Assembly: GCF_003076755.1 (NCBI RefSeq) | Contig: NZ_QDKM01000002.1 | Coordinates: 62,001-126,000, forward strand | From: Pararhodobacter oceanensis | GTDB lineage: Bacteria > Pseudomonadota > Alphaproteobacteria > Rhodobacterales > Rhodobacteraceae | Direction of reading: 5' to 3' | DNA length: 64,000 nt | Shown: positions 14,752-23,952 of the stretch, one piece after another | How positions within the stretch are numbered: the first letter of the stretch is position 1 | How the letters are laid out: every line of letters starts with the position of its first letter | Notes under the pieces: generated by a model | What the model was told of the DNA's origin: nothing | Databases searched by the model: none | Seen by the model: the letters and a program-made list of their open reading frames with translations, nothing else | Program-made: the position numbers and the translations under genes

Positions 14752-15368
14752 AAACCGAAGTGATCAAACTCGACGCTGGCAAAGCCGGTGAACTCGAGCT
14801 GAACGAAGCGATCTTCGGGCTTGAGCCGCGCGCCGACATCCTGCACCGCGTGGTGCGCTGGCAGCGCGCCCGCGCGCAGGCTGGCACGCATTCGACGCTG
14901 GGCCGTTCGGAAGTGTCCTATTCGACCAAGAAGATCTATCGCCAGAAGGGCACCGGCGGCGCACGCCACGGCGCTCGCAGCGCGCCGATCTTCCGTTCGG
15001 GCGGTATCTACAAGGGCCCGGTCTCGCGCAGCCATGCGTTCGACCTGCCCAAGAAGGTCCGCAAGCTCGGTCTGAAGCTGGCGCTCTCGGCCAAGGCTGC
15101 CGCTGGCAAGCTGGTGATCCTGGACTCGACCGAACTGGCCGAAGCCAAGACCGCACTGCTGGCCAAAGCGGTCAATGATCTGGGCTGGAAGAAGGTCCTG
15201 GTCATCGACGGTGCCGAGGTCAACGCGAACTTCGCCGCCGCCGCCCGTAACCTTGATGGTGTGGATATCCTGCCGTCGATGGGCGCAAACGTCTATGACA
15301 TCCTCAAGCGCGACACTCTGGTGATCACGCGGGCGGGTGTCGAAGCTCTGGAGGCTCGTCTGGCATGA
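14748..15368 (+). CDS. rplD: 50S ribosomal protein L4
   Basis: 206-residue L4, lining the exit tunnel. The tunnel-loop motif [21 protein letters not shown] is intact, with the lysine altered in macrolide resistance wild type. In E. coli L4 represses the S10 operon through the leader; whether that holds here cannot be seen. It is coupled by ATGA overlaps to rplC and rplW. Confidence 0.98.
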
Positions 15369-15661
15369 GCGCGAAAGCACAACATTACGACGTGATCCGC
15401 AAGCCGGTGATCACCGAGAAAGCCACCATGGCCTCCGAGGCCAATGCGGTGGTGTTCGAAGTGGCCATCGAGTCGACCAAGCCGCAGATCAAGGAGTCCG
15501 TCGAGGCTCTGTTCGGCGTCAAGGTCAAAGCGGTGAACACGACGATCACCAAGGGCAAGCAGAAGCGGTTCCGCGGCATGCTTGGCCGCCGCAAGGACGT
15601 CAAAAAGGCCTATGTGACCCTCGAAGAGGGCAACGCCATCGACGTCTCGACCGGCCTGTAA
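15365..15661 (+). CDS. rplW: 50S ribosomal protein L23
   Basis: 98-residue L23 at the tunnel exit, docking site for SRP and trigger factor. [22 protein letters not shown] and the basic [19 protein letters not shown] loop are typical. Overlaps rplD by 4 nt. Unlike the usual rplW-rplB junction, a strong terminator follows 26 nt downstream. Confidence 0.98.
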
Positions 15662-15716: not shown

Positions 15717-15806
15717 GAGGTAAGTTCGTGAAATTATTGGGAGCTCGACAGACGCCGAGGGATAAGTGATTATTGCTTTTGAGTTTTTCGGTTGAAAGTA
15801 TCACGA

Positions 15807-16244
15807 ATGAGAAAAACAATTCTAACACTCGCGTTGGCTGTGTCGTTTTTTGGCGGCCCCTTGGAGGCAAGTTGGATTTCGCCGGAACTCCGAGAGAGGC
15901 CCGCGCTTGATATTTCGATCAGATTGGCCGACGAAGCCGTAGATCGTTGTTGGGTTCGGACTGACAGCGCTCGTAGTTGGGCGGATAGACGCCTCCGCGG
16001 CATCGGTTATCAAATTTACGATTCATCGGTTCCGAGGTTGCCTTACTTGCTTATTTTAGTGAATGCGCGAAGATTAGATAATAGATGTGTAGGAAGTGTG
16101 TCAGTCTCGCTGCGGCAGGATATCGTCTACGATGGACGGCGCGTCTCGGTGATTATGGCAGAGGTGTCTGGTTTTGCTGTAGAGGAAGGAAATTTGAACC
16201 AGTTCGTTCTGGATGCAATTGAGCGTTTCGCACGGCTACACTAA
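15807..16244 (+). CDS. Low-GC secreted hypothetical protein
   Basis: 145-residue protein of unknown family. The N-terminus MRKTILTLALAVSFFGGPLEA is a clear Sec signal peptide with AxA-like cleavage before SW. Two cysteines remain in the mature part (DRCWVR, NRCVGS), possibly a disulfide. The start could be a TTG five codons earlier, but the ATG at 15807 gives the better signal peptide. Base composition and codon use are far more AT-rich than the flanking ribosomal genes, which suggests transfer. It stands alone between the rplW terminator and a GC-rich repeat array. Confidence 0.65.
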   Translation: MRKTILTLALAVSFFGGPLEASWISPELRERPALDISIRLADEAVDRCWVRTDSARSWADRRLRGIGYQIYDSSVPRLPYLLILVNARRLDNRCVGSVSVSLRQDIVYDGRRVSVIMAEVSGFAVEEGNLNQFVLDAIERFARLH

Positions 16245-16353
16245 AACAAGTAGTTTTCATCTCATTCGATAGTTCATCGGCGTTGTCAGTTGCAACGATG
16301 GTGTTCTCGCTTTCAAAGCAGTTTTCACGATTCGCCGACCACCTAATCACCCC

Positions 16354-16443
16354 TTCCGCCCGGCTTGCCGGGCAGCGCCCGTCCGCCCCCTCGGGCGGGC
16401 GCTCCGCTTCCGCCCGCGGCCGGGCGCCGCCCTCTATCTGGCG
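16354..16443 (+). repeat. Multi-hairpin repeat family A, unit A1
   Basis: About 90 bp of conserved GC-rich sequence. The first hairpin is GCCCGGCTTGCCGGGC. A larger GCGCCC...GGGCGC hairpin follows, then CCGCCCGCGGCCGGGCG, ending CTCTATCTGGCG. Units start every ~140-145 bp, with a poorly conserved ~53-bp segment between conserved blocks. Confidence 0.85.
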
Positions 16444-16498
16444 CTGAGCAACCGTCGAGAGCACTCTCATCGTTTTTTCGCACCGCCCTGATCCACCC

Positions 16499-16588
16499 TC
16501 CCGCCCGGCTTGCCGGGCAGCGCCCGTCCGCACCCTCGGGCGGGTGTTCCACCCCGCCCGCGGCCGGGTGCTGCCCTCTGTTTGGCGT
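16499..16588 (+). repeat. Multi-hairpin repeat family A, unit A2
   Basis: Same architecture as A1, starting 145 bp after it and ending CTCTGTTTGGCG. The central block reads GTGTTCCACC where A1 has GCTCCGCTTC. Confidence 0.85.
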
Positions 16589-16640
16589 CATACCAGCGCC
16601 GATTGATTCATGTCACCAAAGCGTGCCGCTCTGAACACCC

Positions 16641-16730
16641 CTCCCGCCCGGCAACGCCGGGCAGCGCCCGACCGCCCCCACGGGCGGGTGTTCCACCCAC
16701 CCGCGGTCGGGTGCTGCCCTATGTTTCGCG
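16641..16730 (+). repeat. Multi-hairpin repeat family A, unit A3
   Basis: Same architecture, 142 bp after A2. In the first hairpin the loop side changed in both arms (GCCCGGCAACGCCGGGC), so the fold is kept. A degenerate fourth copy near 16786-16820 keeps both ends (TTCCGCCCG and GGGCGCCGCTCCTCTGTTC) but has lost the middle. Confidence 0.82.
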
Positions 16731-16859
16731 GTAGACCAACGCGGGATAGTCCGGTGTCGTCTTTGCGTGACGCGCCATTCAATTCTTCCGCCCGCAATTG
16801 GGCGCCGCTCCTCTGTTCACTCCCAATCCCCCCGCACAGCAGATTCCCGCCACGCGCTA

Positions 16860-16887
16860 TAGACACCCCCCCTCAACCCTGCTATCT
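16860..16887 (+). promoter_or_regulatory. Candidate promoter for rplB segment
   Basis: TAGACA (16860-16865), 16-bp spacer, CTATCT (16882-16887). The match is moderate. Some promoter is needed here because of the strong terminator after rplW. Confidence 0.35.
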
Positions 16888-16935: not shown

Positions 16936-17005
16936 GATCCGGGGACCTTCGGGGCCCTTTACACATGGCAGCTACCTGCCACAAAGCAAACGGAAGACAG
17001 AAAGC

Positions 17006-19239: not shown

Positions 19240-19653
19240 ATGCTGCAACCGAAACGGACGAAGTTCCGCAAACAGTTCAAGGGACGCATCCACGGCGAAG
19301 CCAAAGGCGGTTCGGATCTGACCTTCGGGTCCTATGGCCTGAAAGCTGTTGAACCCGAGCGCATGACCGCGCGCCAGATCGAAGCTGCCCGTCGGGCCAT
19401 GACGCGTCACATGAAGCGTCAGGGTCGCGTCTGGATCCGTGTGTTCCCCGATGTGCCGGTGTCGTCGAAACCGACCGAAGTGCGGATGGGTAAAGGCAAG
19501 GGCTCGGTGGACTATTGGGCCGCCAAGATCAAACCCGGCCGGATCATGTTCGAGATCGACGGCGTGAACGACGAAACCGCCCGCGAAGCCCTGCGTCTGG
19601 CCGCTATGAAGCTGCCGATGAAGACCCGGGTCGTGGTCCGCGAAGACTGGTAA
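19240..19653 (+). CDS. rplP: 50S ribosomal protein L16
   Basis: 137-residue L16 near the A-site tRNA elbow. [16 protein letters not shown] start; the [22 protein letters not shown] loop is typical. AGGAGAG precedes the ATG. Normally rpmC follows directly; here a REP palindrome, a terminator and 4.1 kb of other genes intervene. Confidence 0.99.
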
Positions 19654-19654
19654 C

Positions 19655-19679
19655 GGTGCGTGCAAAGCACACACCCTAC
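19655..19679 (-). repeat. REP-like palindrome (copy 4, reverse)
   Basis: GGTGCGTGC, loop AAA, GCACACACC, then CTAC, starting 2 nt after the rplP stop. The single mismatch becomes a G-T pair on the GTAG strand. Copies 4, 7 and 9 share this exact 25-bp form. Confidence 0.85.
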
Positions 19680-19687
19680 GCTAACGA

Positions 19688-19720
19688 GGCTCCCGCTGCG
19701 AAAGTTGCGGGGGCCTTTTT
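19688..19720 (+). terminator. Intrinsic terminator after rplP
   Basis: GGCTCCCGC pairs with GCGGGGGCC (one G-T) and is followed by five T (19716-19720). It ends the rplB-rplP segment. Confidence 0.8.
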
Positions 19721-19735
19721 CATTCGAGGCGCAAA

Positions 19736-20077
19736 TTGACGGATGCTGAACTGACGTTCCGGGTGTGGTGGCAAAAGGGGCAGCTTGAAGCCGCTGTGCC
19801 TGCATGGAAAGACCGCGTTTATGAAGCGTCCAAATATGCGGGACGCGACAAGGCCGCGTTCGAGGCAAAGGTTGGCCAACGCCGGAGTCGGTCACTTTTC
19901 AAGACACTTGAGGCGCTCGAATCCGCCATGTTCCGGATTAAACCGGATTGGTCGAATGATGCGACGTTATCTGACGTCGCGATGCAGATGGAAGCCGTGC
20001 TGCGCGGCAGATTCGCAGGCATTCCGGACAAAGTCATGTCCGAGTTGATCAACCGGTATATGTTCAGTTACCGCTAA
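19736..20077 (+). CDS. Orphan 113-aa hypothetical protein
   Basis: Small soluble protein, 113 residues, that I do not recognise. It starts at TTG, with GAGG 6 nt upstream. The sequence is rich in Trp, Lys, Arg and Ala with likely amphipathic helices (WWQKGQLEAAVPAWKDRVYEA, RSRSLFKTLEALESAMFRI), which suggests an all-helical fold. It has no signal peptide and no cysteine. It is the first gene of the 4.1-kb block splitting rplP from rpmC. A REP palindrome lies 20 bp after its stop, then the GIY-YIG gene. Confidence 0.6.
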   Translation: MTDAELTFRVWWQKGQLEAAVPAWKDRVYEASKYAGRDKAAFEAKVGQRRSRSLFKTLEALESAMFRIKPDWSNDATLSDVAMQMEAVLRGRFAGIPDKVMSELINRYMFSYR

Positions 20078-20097
20078 GGGATGTGGCGTGCGGGGAC

Positions 20098-20122
20098 GGT
20101 GCGTGCAAGCACGCCACCCTAC
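20098..20122 (-). repeat. REP-like palindrome (copy 5, reverse)
   Basis: GGTGCGTGC, loop AA, GCACGCCACC (one bulged C), CTAC. It lies between the orphan 113-aa gene and the GIY-YIG gene. Confidence 0.8.
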
Positions 20123-20193
20123 GAATGCTGATACTTGGGCGACTCGTTGACGGTTATATGCATGTGCTGGAACTTGGTTTGAGGGGGATCCAA

Positions 20194-20517
20194 ATGGCGG
20201 CGGGCGGGCGCAAATTCACCTATGTGGTCTATAAGATCACCTTTCCCAATGGAAAAATCTACATCGGCAAAGATATCGGACGGGGTGGACACTCGATCAG
20301 GTATTTCGGCTCGTGGAGTGCGTCACTTGTCGAGAGCGAATTCACCAAAGACCAGTTGATGGATTTCACGATTAGGCGTGAGATTTTGTTCGAAAGTCCT
20401 GATCGGGTGGAGGTCAGCAAGAAAGAAATCGAATTTATCATTTCCACTAAGGCGAATGATCCTCGATATGGATACAATCGAACACCGAGATTAGCCGCAC
20501 CACTTGTCGAGCGTTAA
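20194..20517 (+). CDS. Solo GIY-YIG nuclease-fold protein
   Basis: 107-residue protein consisting of little more than a GIY-YIG domain. VVY (11-13) and YIG (23-25) stand 12 residues apart as TYVVYKITFPNGKIYIGKD. A candidate catalytic Arg is R30; Tyr37 and Glu80 (KKEIEFI) are followed by the terminal Asn95 (YGYNR), the order seen in phage-type GIY-YIG enzymes. The ATG at 20194 has GAGGGGG 6 nt upstream; longer starts lack homology. No DNA-binding domain is attached and no intron is evident. It could be a degenerate homing endonuclease or a small structure-specific nuclease. Composition is less GC-rich than its neighbours. Confidence 0.7.
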   Translation: MAAGGRKFTYVVYKITFPNGKIYIGKDIGRGGHSIRYFGSWSASLVESEFTKDQLMDFTIRREILFESPDRVEVSKKEIEFIISTKANDPRYGYNRTPRLAAPLVER

Positions 20518-20570
20518 GTAATAGTAATTGTTCATACAATTGATCCCGCGATCTGCTGTGCTGGTCTTTT

Positions 20571-20657
20571 CGCCAGGCTTGCCGGGCAGCGCCCGTCCGC
20601 CCCCTCGGGCGGGCGCTTCGCTTCCCGCCCGCGGCCGGGCACTCCCCTCTGTGTGGC
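20571..20657 (+). repeat. Multi-hairpin repeat family A, unit A4
   Basis: CGCCAGGCTTGCCGGGC at the left (one change from the consensus), GCGCCC...GGGCGC hairpin, CCCGCGGCCGGGC, ending CTCTGTGTGGC. First of a second triplet. Confidence 0.84.
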
Positions 20658-20710
20658 TTGAAGTGGATTACATGAACCGATTGTGTATGTTGAGTCTCCG
20701 TCCAGCACAC

Positions 20711-20795
20711 GCTCCGCCCGGCTTGCCGGGCAACACCCGACCGCGGGCGGGTGTTCCACCCCCGCCCGCGGTCGGGTGCAGCCCTATGTCTGGCG
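20711..20795 (+). repeat. Multi-hairpin repeat family A, unit A5
   Basis: Starts exactly 140 bp after A4. The central hairpin is shorter (ACACCCGACCGCGGGCGGGTGT) but still paired. Ends CCTATGTCTGGCG. Confidence 0.84.
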
Positions 20796-20850
20796 TCCAA
20801 TCCGCTGCATCGAGAACCGGTGCCGTTCTGGCATGCCGCGTCAATCACAT

Positions 20851-20967
20851 CTTCCGCCCGGCAAGCCGGGCAGCGCCCGTCCGCCCCGTCACGCCGTAGG
20901 CGTGCCTATGGCCCTCGGGCGGGCGCTCCGCTTCCGCCCGCGGACGGGTGCTGCCCTCTGTTCGGTG
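20851..20967 (+). repeat. Multi-hairpin repeat family A, unit A6, with nested insertion
   Basis: Starts exactly 140 bp after A5. About 26 bp containing the palindrome CACGCCGTAGGCGTG (about 20890-20904) is inserted in the loop of the central hairpin, making the unit longer. The rest matches A1. Confidence 0.84.
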
Positions 20968-21084
20968 CAAAAGGGATGCATTGCTCGGTTATGGCCTGAT
21001 GTTAAAGGTAATCAGCCCTGCCAAGCCCCGGGTGCCGGCCCGTAGGTTTTCGTTGAAAACCCGCACCACCGCACGCAGTTCGCC

Positions 21085-21705
21085 CTACGCCCAACTGTAA
21101 TTAAAACTCACCGATATCCGGTCGTCCTCGGACATATTCATCGGCACCTCATGGCGCAGCCAGCTCTCCCAGAGCAGCACTTCGCCGACCTCGGGCGCCA
21201 GGTAGATAAACGGCTGCAACTCCCGCCGCGCGTCTTTGAACCGGGGCGGGGCGGCCATCATCATCGCCGCCCGCGGGTCCTCGAGTTTCAGCGCCGAGGT
21301 GCCCGCGGGCATCGCCACATAACAGGTCCCCGAGATCACCGAATGCGGGTGGATATGCGAGGCATGCATCCCGCCCTGCGGCAGAATATTGATCCATAGA
21401 TCCTCAAGCTTCAGCTTGCGCCCCTCCAGATCAAACGCCAGATCCTCGGCGAAAGCCGCCACATGCTTGTCCAGCGCCTTAACCATTGCCTTGAACACCG
21501 GAAACCGCCAGGGCAGATCGGTCAAGGAGGCATAGCTGGTATAGCCCGGATAGCCGTTGGCCTCGCACCAATCCTGCCCGGCCTCGTCATCCTCGGCAAT
21601 CGAATAGCAGGACGCCTCCAACTCCTGCGGATCTAGCGCAGAGCCGGATTTGGCCAGACGGGCGCGGTAAAGGCGGGTCGCAAACAGCGATTCAATCTGT
21701 GTCAT
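21085..21705 (-). CDS. 2OG-Fe(II) oxygenase-like protein (TIGR02466 type)
   Basis: 206-residue cupin-fold protein resembling the TIGR02466 / 2OG-Fe(II) oxygenase 5 family. Candidate metal ligands are in HASHIHPHSVISG (His117/His119) and distal His185 (WLRHEVPMN); Arg196 in DRISVSFNY would bind the 2-oxoglutarate carboxylate. The start MTQIESLFATRLY is typical of the family. It is divergent from the RidA gene across 106 bp and converges on the repeat array. The substrate is unknown; related proteins hydroxylate protein or small-molecule targets. Confidence 0.75.
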   Translation of the reverse strand: MTQIESLFATRLYRARLAKSGSALDPQELEASCYSIAEDDEAGQDWCEANGYPGYTSYASLTDLPWRFPVFKAMVKALDKHVAAFAEDLAFDLEGRKLKLEDLWINILPQGGMHASHIHPHSVISGTCYVAMPAGTSALKLEDPRAAMMMAAPPRFKDARRELQPFIYLAPEVGEVLLWESWLRHEVPMNMSEDDRISVSFNYSWA

Positions 21706-23748: not shown

Positions 23749-23952
23749 ATGAAAGCCGCAGAACTACGTGACAAGACCCCGGACCAGCTGCGCGATCAGC
23801 TGGTGGCGCTGAAGAAAGAGGCCTTCAACCTCCGTTTTCAGGCCGCAACCAACCAATTGGAAAACACCGCCCGTCAGCGCCAAGTGCGCCGTGACGTCGC
23901 GCGTGTGAACACCATTTTGAACCAAAAAGCCGCTGAAGCGGCGGCGAACTGA
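23749..23952 (+). CDS. rpmC: 50S ribosomal protein L29
   Basis: 67-residue L29, a two-helix protein at the tunnel exit. [31 protein letters not shown] is typical. AAAGGAAAG precedes the ATG. First gene after the 4.1-kb insertion; rpsQ follows 11 nt later. Confidence 0.98.

Follow-up and report, generated by a model that had tools for sequence, protein, structure and literature searches.

A probable homing-type GIY-YIG nuclease gene in a variable slot behind rplP in the S10 operon of Pararhodobacter oceanensis

The 107-amino-acid open reading frame (ORF) P0003 of Pararhodobacter oceanensis is probably, with a likelihood that we place at about 0.6, a mobile, free-standing cassette encoding a single-domain, homing-type GIY-YIG nuclease, and it occupies a variable slot between the ribosomal protein genes rplP and rpmC. 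The window, that is, the whole stretch of DNA that was analyzed, comprises 64,000 nt of the forward strand (assembly GCF_003076755.1, contig NZ_QDKM01000002.1, positions 62,001 to 126,000). Computed support comes from a predicted fold, conserved residues of catalytic type, patchy presence, varied genomic sites, foreign composition, DNA similarity that mostly stops at the ORF, constraint on the protein, and slots that congeners leave empty or fill with other DNA; from these we infer nuclease activity, a target, and self-driven spread. The palindromes around the gene and the 113-amino-acid ORF before it, P0001, are regarded as fellow occupants of the slot and not as partners of the nuclease gene.

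The window contains an alphaproteobacterial S10 operon, with an L2-Alphaproteobacteria leader at 16941 to 17003, and the slot opens after rplP (uL16; 19240 to 19653, forward strand). There follow a degenerate REP-like palindrome (19655 to 19682), a terminator-like hairpin with a T-run (19696 to 19718, forward strand; a weak candidate, with two found in 1.5 kb and a mean of 1.5 in shuffled sequences), the TTG-started P0001 (19736 to 20077, forward strand), a second REP palindrome (20083 to 20125), the ATG-started P0003 (20194 to 20517, forward strand) behind a Shine-Dalgarno-like stretch, and the units of a G+C-rich hairpin array (20568 to 20960). Both ORFs, the palindrome between them, and the array, numbered A4 to A6 in a preliminary description of this DNA, are present as reported there. 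The far border of the slot is a putative 2OG-Fe(II) oxygenase gene (TIGR02466; 21085 to 21705, reverse strand), and the operon resumes with rpmC (uL29; 23749 to 23952, forward strand), about 4 kb from rplP and with other genes between. A promoter scan of 19600 to 21100, with a pattern not tuned to the group of the host, found none.

A tblastn match to rplP was obtained in 13 of the 18 genomes of the genus, the window's own included, and the slot was compared in the 12 other congeners over stretches of up to 8 kb, some of them cut by contig ends. The two ORFs had been described as lying within the S10 operon; this holds in that they stand between rplP and rpmC, but the place is a variable slot, and in 6 of the 12 congeners the two ribosomal genes are only some 110 to 190 nt apart. 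The oxygenase gene follows rplP at about 110 to 490 nt in five congeners and other DNA follows it in one, and neither P0001 nor the nuclease gene was present in any of the 12 stretches. In congener G011, the gap of about 490 nt between rplP and the oxygenase gene holds a 103-amino-acid HNH-type ORF on the opposite strand (locus L046; Pfam HNH E value of 0.0022, below the cutoff). Since this gap holds an HNH-type ORF and that of the window a GIY-YIG one, the slot behind rplP is one that takes different small genes. The window and genome G112 both have a family member near rplP and the oxygenase gene, on different sides of the latter. No exact empty-site pair was found for the copy in the window, where more than the P0003 ORF has entered the slot.

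The GIY-YIG fold that had been read from the letters of P0003 is borne out by structure prediction. An AlphaFold model built from 16 sequences (mean pLDDT of 79) was compared with known structures by VIA-align, which is a second look at Foldseek's own list and warns that Z scores below 8 may mean only a common arrangement; its best row was the catalytic domain of I-TevI (1mk0; Z score of 8.2, 81 residues, 2.4 Å), and the other I-TevI entry (1ln0) scored 7.8, both aligning over 81 residues with 21% identity. The nine best rows were entries for I-TevI (two), the PD-T4-3 restriction enzyme (three), and the GIY-YIG domain of UvrC (four), and the match spans residues 8 to 98 of the 107. Plain Foldseek returned poor matches to the model, none significant, and searching the PDB by sequence yielded no meaningful match and no link to I-TevI. 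Pfam, NCBIfam, and PADLOC gave P0003 no name, and the Pfam GIY-YIG family PF01541 did not match it at E values up to 1, although it matched 2 of 16 family members and 3 of 19 in another set weakly (best E value of 0.00025). SegE_GIY-YIG matched 7 of the 16 (best E value of 0.037, also weak), and HNH_repeat (4 of 16; 0.0029) and Imm3 (3 of 16; 0.0035) did no worse than the GIY-YIG families of Pfam. Two PHROG homing endonuclease families matched P0003 weakly (E value of about 0.001), and the annotation of its plasmid relatives reads "GIY-YIG nuclease family protein."

Members of the GIY-YIG superfamily have a conserved catalytic arginine. An alignment of 19 family members, one of them P0003, shows no change at Y23, E78, or N95. 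Of the residues that had been singled out earlier (R30, E80, and N95), only the last is thus retained throughout; R30 and E80 are not conserved, and of the VVY...YIG motif Y23 is kept in all 19 whereas the first tyrosine, Y13, is replaced in some rows. As candidates for the arginine, position 36 is variable and position 62 is basic in all 19. NUMOD domains were found neither in P0003 nor among the 25 commonest Pfam families of 16 members.

The small, single-domain protein and the occurrence of UvrC and UPF0213 structures in the VIA-align table are what one might expect of a chromosomal DNA repair or housekeeping enzyme akin to either of these, but we consider this reading very unlikely: Pfam does not place the family there, a conserved syntenic orthologue in most relatives was not seen, and members occur in only some 1 to 2% of sampled genomes, at unrelated sites. 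The family is rare and scattered. Counting the window's own genome each time, it was found in 2 of the 18 genus genomes, in 8 of 394 Rhodobacteraceae (the same 8 in 388 with a wider profile), in 4 of 385 genomes of the class, and in 5 of 398 in the phylum sample; the samples of family (both profiles), class, and phylum overlap. A pattern scan of a collection of species genomes yielded 18 loci, in Alphaproteobacteria, Betaproteobacteria, and two metagenome-assembled genomes of other phyla. Five plasmid records hold relatives of up to 50% identity and three phage records, those of mycobacteriophages Gaia (deposited twice) and Nebkiss, relatives of 35% identity. An origin in phages was considered and set aside, as only these mycobacteriophages and two weak viral contigs matched. 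The full set examined comprises 36 loci; L062, on a Tistrella plasmid, looks like the same record as L078, being of equal length, and was counted once.

Several features of these loci point to movement of the ORF by itself. Where members lie at different sites, DNA similarity begins no more than about 15 nt from the start codon; flanking DNA is shared only by pairs at the same site (recA, rpoD, pheS, and cas3-cas5) and by a group of four (L013, L014, L015, and L082). Labrenzia alba has a copy at each of two places, one full and one truncated; the two are 92.7% alike over 110 nt, counted from 12 nt before the ATG, and in the 500 nt upstream nothing more matches. The rpoD slot is polymorphic: in the genus of G379 the gene is carried there by 2 of 16 genomes, with insertion borders that could not be fixed exactly. 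At 35 of 36 loci the gene is poorer in G+C than its flanks, and P0003 has 47.8% against 62.2% for the window, a value as low as that of only 5 of 1,274 windows of the same size, those covering the gene included. Four members are shorter than 80 amino acids (L025, which lies beside a masked stretch, L027, L028, and L077); these and L095 were omitted from the family tree, and all five are counted among the 36.

Of 18 pairs of relatives compared, 14 are more alike in amino acids than in nucleotides (for example, 85% against 75%), two are tied, and two show the reverse; dS is saturated in 16 pairs and above 3.6 in the other two. Since amino acid identity is mostly the higher, the protein is constrained and no remnant. 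Of the earlier suggestion of a homing remnant, the first word is favored, by a rare, patchy, AT-rich, free-standing gene at many unrelated sites between genes, and the second is not, the gene being intact and constrained. Divergence at fourfold sites is greater in the gene than in its neighbors (0.62 to 0.68 against 0.25 to 0.37 in adjacent rpoD or recA, and 0.64 to 0.71 against 0.47 to 0.55 in adjacent cas5), with a less clear contrast for the pair of the window and G112 (gene, 0.76; rplP, 0.64; oxygenase gene, 0.55), but codon bias may account for the higher values, and few sites and saturation also weaken any inference of repeated arrival from them. At recA in two Chitinilyticum genomes and at rpoD in three genomes, closely related members occupy the same place, which fits vertical descent. 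Given such common sites and a tree of little resolution (4 of 28 inner branches starred), part of the family has likely been inherited in place.

The sites themselves are diverse. In 17 of the 36 loci, a conserved gene lies on the same strand within 300 nt upstream: rpoD and cas3 three times each, recA and pheS twice each, and once each cas7, purD, mfd, thiC, and the genes for a Pyr_redox (lpd-like) enzyme, a heptosyltransferase, and a glyoxalase. Pfam supplied 14 of these names, and flank or query identity the other 3. In 15 of 36 loci, an open frame of 150 codons or more overlaps the member or stops no more than 60 nt before it; both figures are raw counts with no baseline. The names cas8, phd/pemK, and mazEF-like were assigned by eye in these neighborhoods, and the neighbor of L022 has no Pfam match. 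Other members lie on plasmids or near contig ends. Since rare relatives stand behind many different core genes, P0003 looks like a wandering homing-type gene and not like an enzyme for the repeats next to it.

The same sites also lend themselves to a reading in which the gene is passive cargo of general gene turnover hotspots, such as slots behind conserved genes or the ends of integrative elements at tRNA genes; the nuclease would then have a useful accessory job, for instance in defense or in the processing of DNA, and would not be what moves the gene. We hold this to be unlikely. It would account for the constraint on the sequence, for the flanking DNA shared by the group of four, and for the other DNA that fills the rplP and rpoD slots in congeners. 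A tRNA-Ser gene lies about 100 nt from the end of one member and a tRNA-Leu gene about 215 nt from the end of another, and L027 follows a ParE-type toxin gene at about 100 nt, positions that would also suit cargo. Against this reading, PADLOC matched neither P0003 nor P0001 and no partner gene recurred in the listed neighborhoods of members, and generic islands poorly explain several sites that are single-gene insertions inside cas operons. In the rpoD comparison (L090 to L119), the DNA directly behind rpoD was seen to differ between most genomes of the G379 genus, as in a gene turnover slot, and to be alike in four of them (G1133, G1136, G1146, and G1147).

The members inside cas operons were observed in four genomes at two junctions, cas3-GIY-cas5 (L079, L086, and L087) and cas7-GIY-cas4 (L088), and three of the four group together in the tree (93/81). 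From their gene content we read these operons as type I-C. Their GIY-YIG genes are either the product of repeated invasion or accessory nucleases, and they would interest those who work on CRISPR; no title among the matches listed from the open full-text literature referred to the present family or to GIY-YIG genes within cas operons.

Returning to the homing-type cassette, we envisage that the nuclease ORF would land behind a conserved gene, be expressed by transcription from upstream or through a weak start of its own, and yield a product that nicks or cuts the DNA of alleles lacking the gene, whereupon recombination repair through the conserved flanking genes (rplP and the oxygenase gene or rpmC) would copy the ORF in, in the manner of seg and mob of phage T4. 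Selfish free-standing nuclease genes are known mainly from phages. If the proposed mechanism is true, they also shape bacterial core operons, there is a simple reason why small foreign genes recur just behind rpoD, rplP, and recA, and one has to ask how a small GIY-YIG protein lacking a separate DNA-binding domain finds the target that it cuts. A wider proposal, which we advance tentatively and judge somewhat short of probable, is that the family is a bacterial-chromosome counterpart of T4 seg/mob, consisting of GIY-YIG cassettes of about 100 amino acids without a DNA-binding domain that home behind the core genes rplP, rpoD, recA, pheS, and thiC and have entered cas operons of I-C content at cas3/cas5 and cas7/cas4, that the conservation of the host genes serves as landing homology, and that the cassettes seed turnover hotspots.

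I-TevI has a long DNA-binding part; the P0003 gene is free-standing, and no such part was seen in its product. The predicted fold of P0003 resembles the catalytic domain of I-TevI, which is intron encoded according to PMC2988022. The same source describes T4 seg and mob as free-standing ORFs between conserved genes, with seg encoding a GIY-YIG nuclease domain and mob an HNH one. P0003 shares with them a patchy presence and a place between genes, beside conserved ones; in contrast, its family occurs on bacterial chromosomes and plasmids, its members have some 95 to 125 amino acids, and no DNA-binding module was seen outside the nuclease domain. Since P0003 lacks the DNA-binding part of known homing endonucleases, we describe it as acting in their manner without classifying it among them. 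The "unorthodox" GIY-YIG homing endonucleases of Dunin-Horkawicz et al. (2006; PMC1564403) likewise have a GIY-YIG domain without NUMOD; that survey reports no GIY-YIG homing endonuclease in Alphaproteobacteria, where the P0003 family does occur, and the comparison with its proteins is by description only. According to Barth et al. (2023; PMC10448857), homing endonuclease genes (HEGs) of phages cluster near essential genes and different nuclease classes share one locus, much as nuclease genes lie near essential genes here and GIY-YIG and HNH types share one slot, but the genomes there are those of phages and the families are others (T5orf172 and IPA-HNH).

P0001 is most plausibly a further foreign gene that occupies the slot. 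Within the genus it was found only in its own genome (1 of 18), a search of 295 genomes of the family gave one weak relative besides (34% over 75 residues), and none was found in plasmids, phages, or viral contigs. It had been put forward as a helical protein of unknown family; near-orphan it is, whereas the helical form comes from a single-sequence model of low confidence (pLDDT of 60). Its G+C content is 55%, with 56 of 1,274 windows as low. A two-gene module of P0001 and P0003 was ruled out, since no relative of the former was found at the other 35 GIY-YIG loci. Elsewhere in the window, a 150-amino-acid ORF with a signal-like N terminus and a G+C content of 50%, for which no family was found, lies at 15792 to 16244, between an ORF at 15365 to 15661 and rplB.

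The closeness of gene and palindromes had prompted the idea that the nuclease is a structure-specific enzyme acting on the REP and hairpin sequences nearby, which we now regard as very unlikely. The repeats are close to the gene in the window, and the second REP palindrome folds better than shuffled sequences (z score of -3.1; 1 of 200 shuffles as good), with weaker results for the REP-like copy behind rplP (z score of -1.7; 11 of 200) and for the array unit at 20568 to 20650 (z score of -1.8; 11 of 200). The 19-nt core of the array has six matches in the window at up to 3 mismatches against 0.21 expected. Among the 18 genomes of the genus, however, the array unit is confined to that of the window, with five copies at up to 2 mismatches, four of them in the S10 region, and at up to 4 mismatches it lies within 1.5 kb of only 1 of the 36 family members, that in the window. 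The REP consensus (up to 2 mismatches) is found in 6 of the 18 genomes; the nuclease gene is missing from G001, which has 97 matches, while G003, which carries a family gene, has none. The idea does not withstand the refuting test that was set out with it, and the co-occurrence expected of a REP-processing (RAYT-like) enzyme is not seen. An ungapped REP pattern was found near none of the 36 loci, a scan that missed the second copy in the window owing to a one-base insertion. With the array unit near a single member and REPs abundant where the gene is absent, the data do not support an action of the enzyme on either.

Hairpins of any sequence with a stem of 9 nevertheless speak somewhat for the idea, being about five times as dense within 400 nt of the gene (13 in 27.8 kb, or 0.47 per kb) as further out (14 in 156.9 kb, or 0.09 per kb), but only 10 of the 36 loci have one so near and 26 have none. 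In noncoding DNA alone, the excess is 1.1- to 1.3-fold or 2.5- to 3-fold, depending on which of two markings of coding DNA is used, and thus remains by one of them, with small counts (3 to 12 near and 4 to 9 far). By position, the terminators of recA and rpoD are among the hairpins near the gene, and terminators of upstream genes may explain the excess, which arises at least in part because the gene lies between genes. The excess led us to raise the odds of an enzyme for palindromes slightly, within the range of the very unlikely, and a general preference of the enzyme for hairpins is a weak possibility. In L084, inspection by eye shows REP-like inverted repeats, though with a different sequence, immediately after the gene, and a REP lies directly behind rplP both in the window and in G001 (L044). 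The array units of the window occupy two gaps of the S10 operon, before rplB (16340 to 16860) and after rplP (20568 to 20960), and the strict unit has one more match elsewhere in the genome, all five being on one strand.
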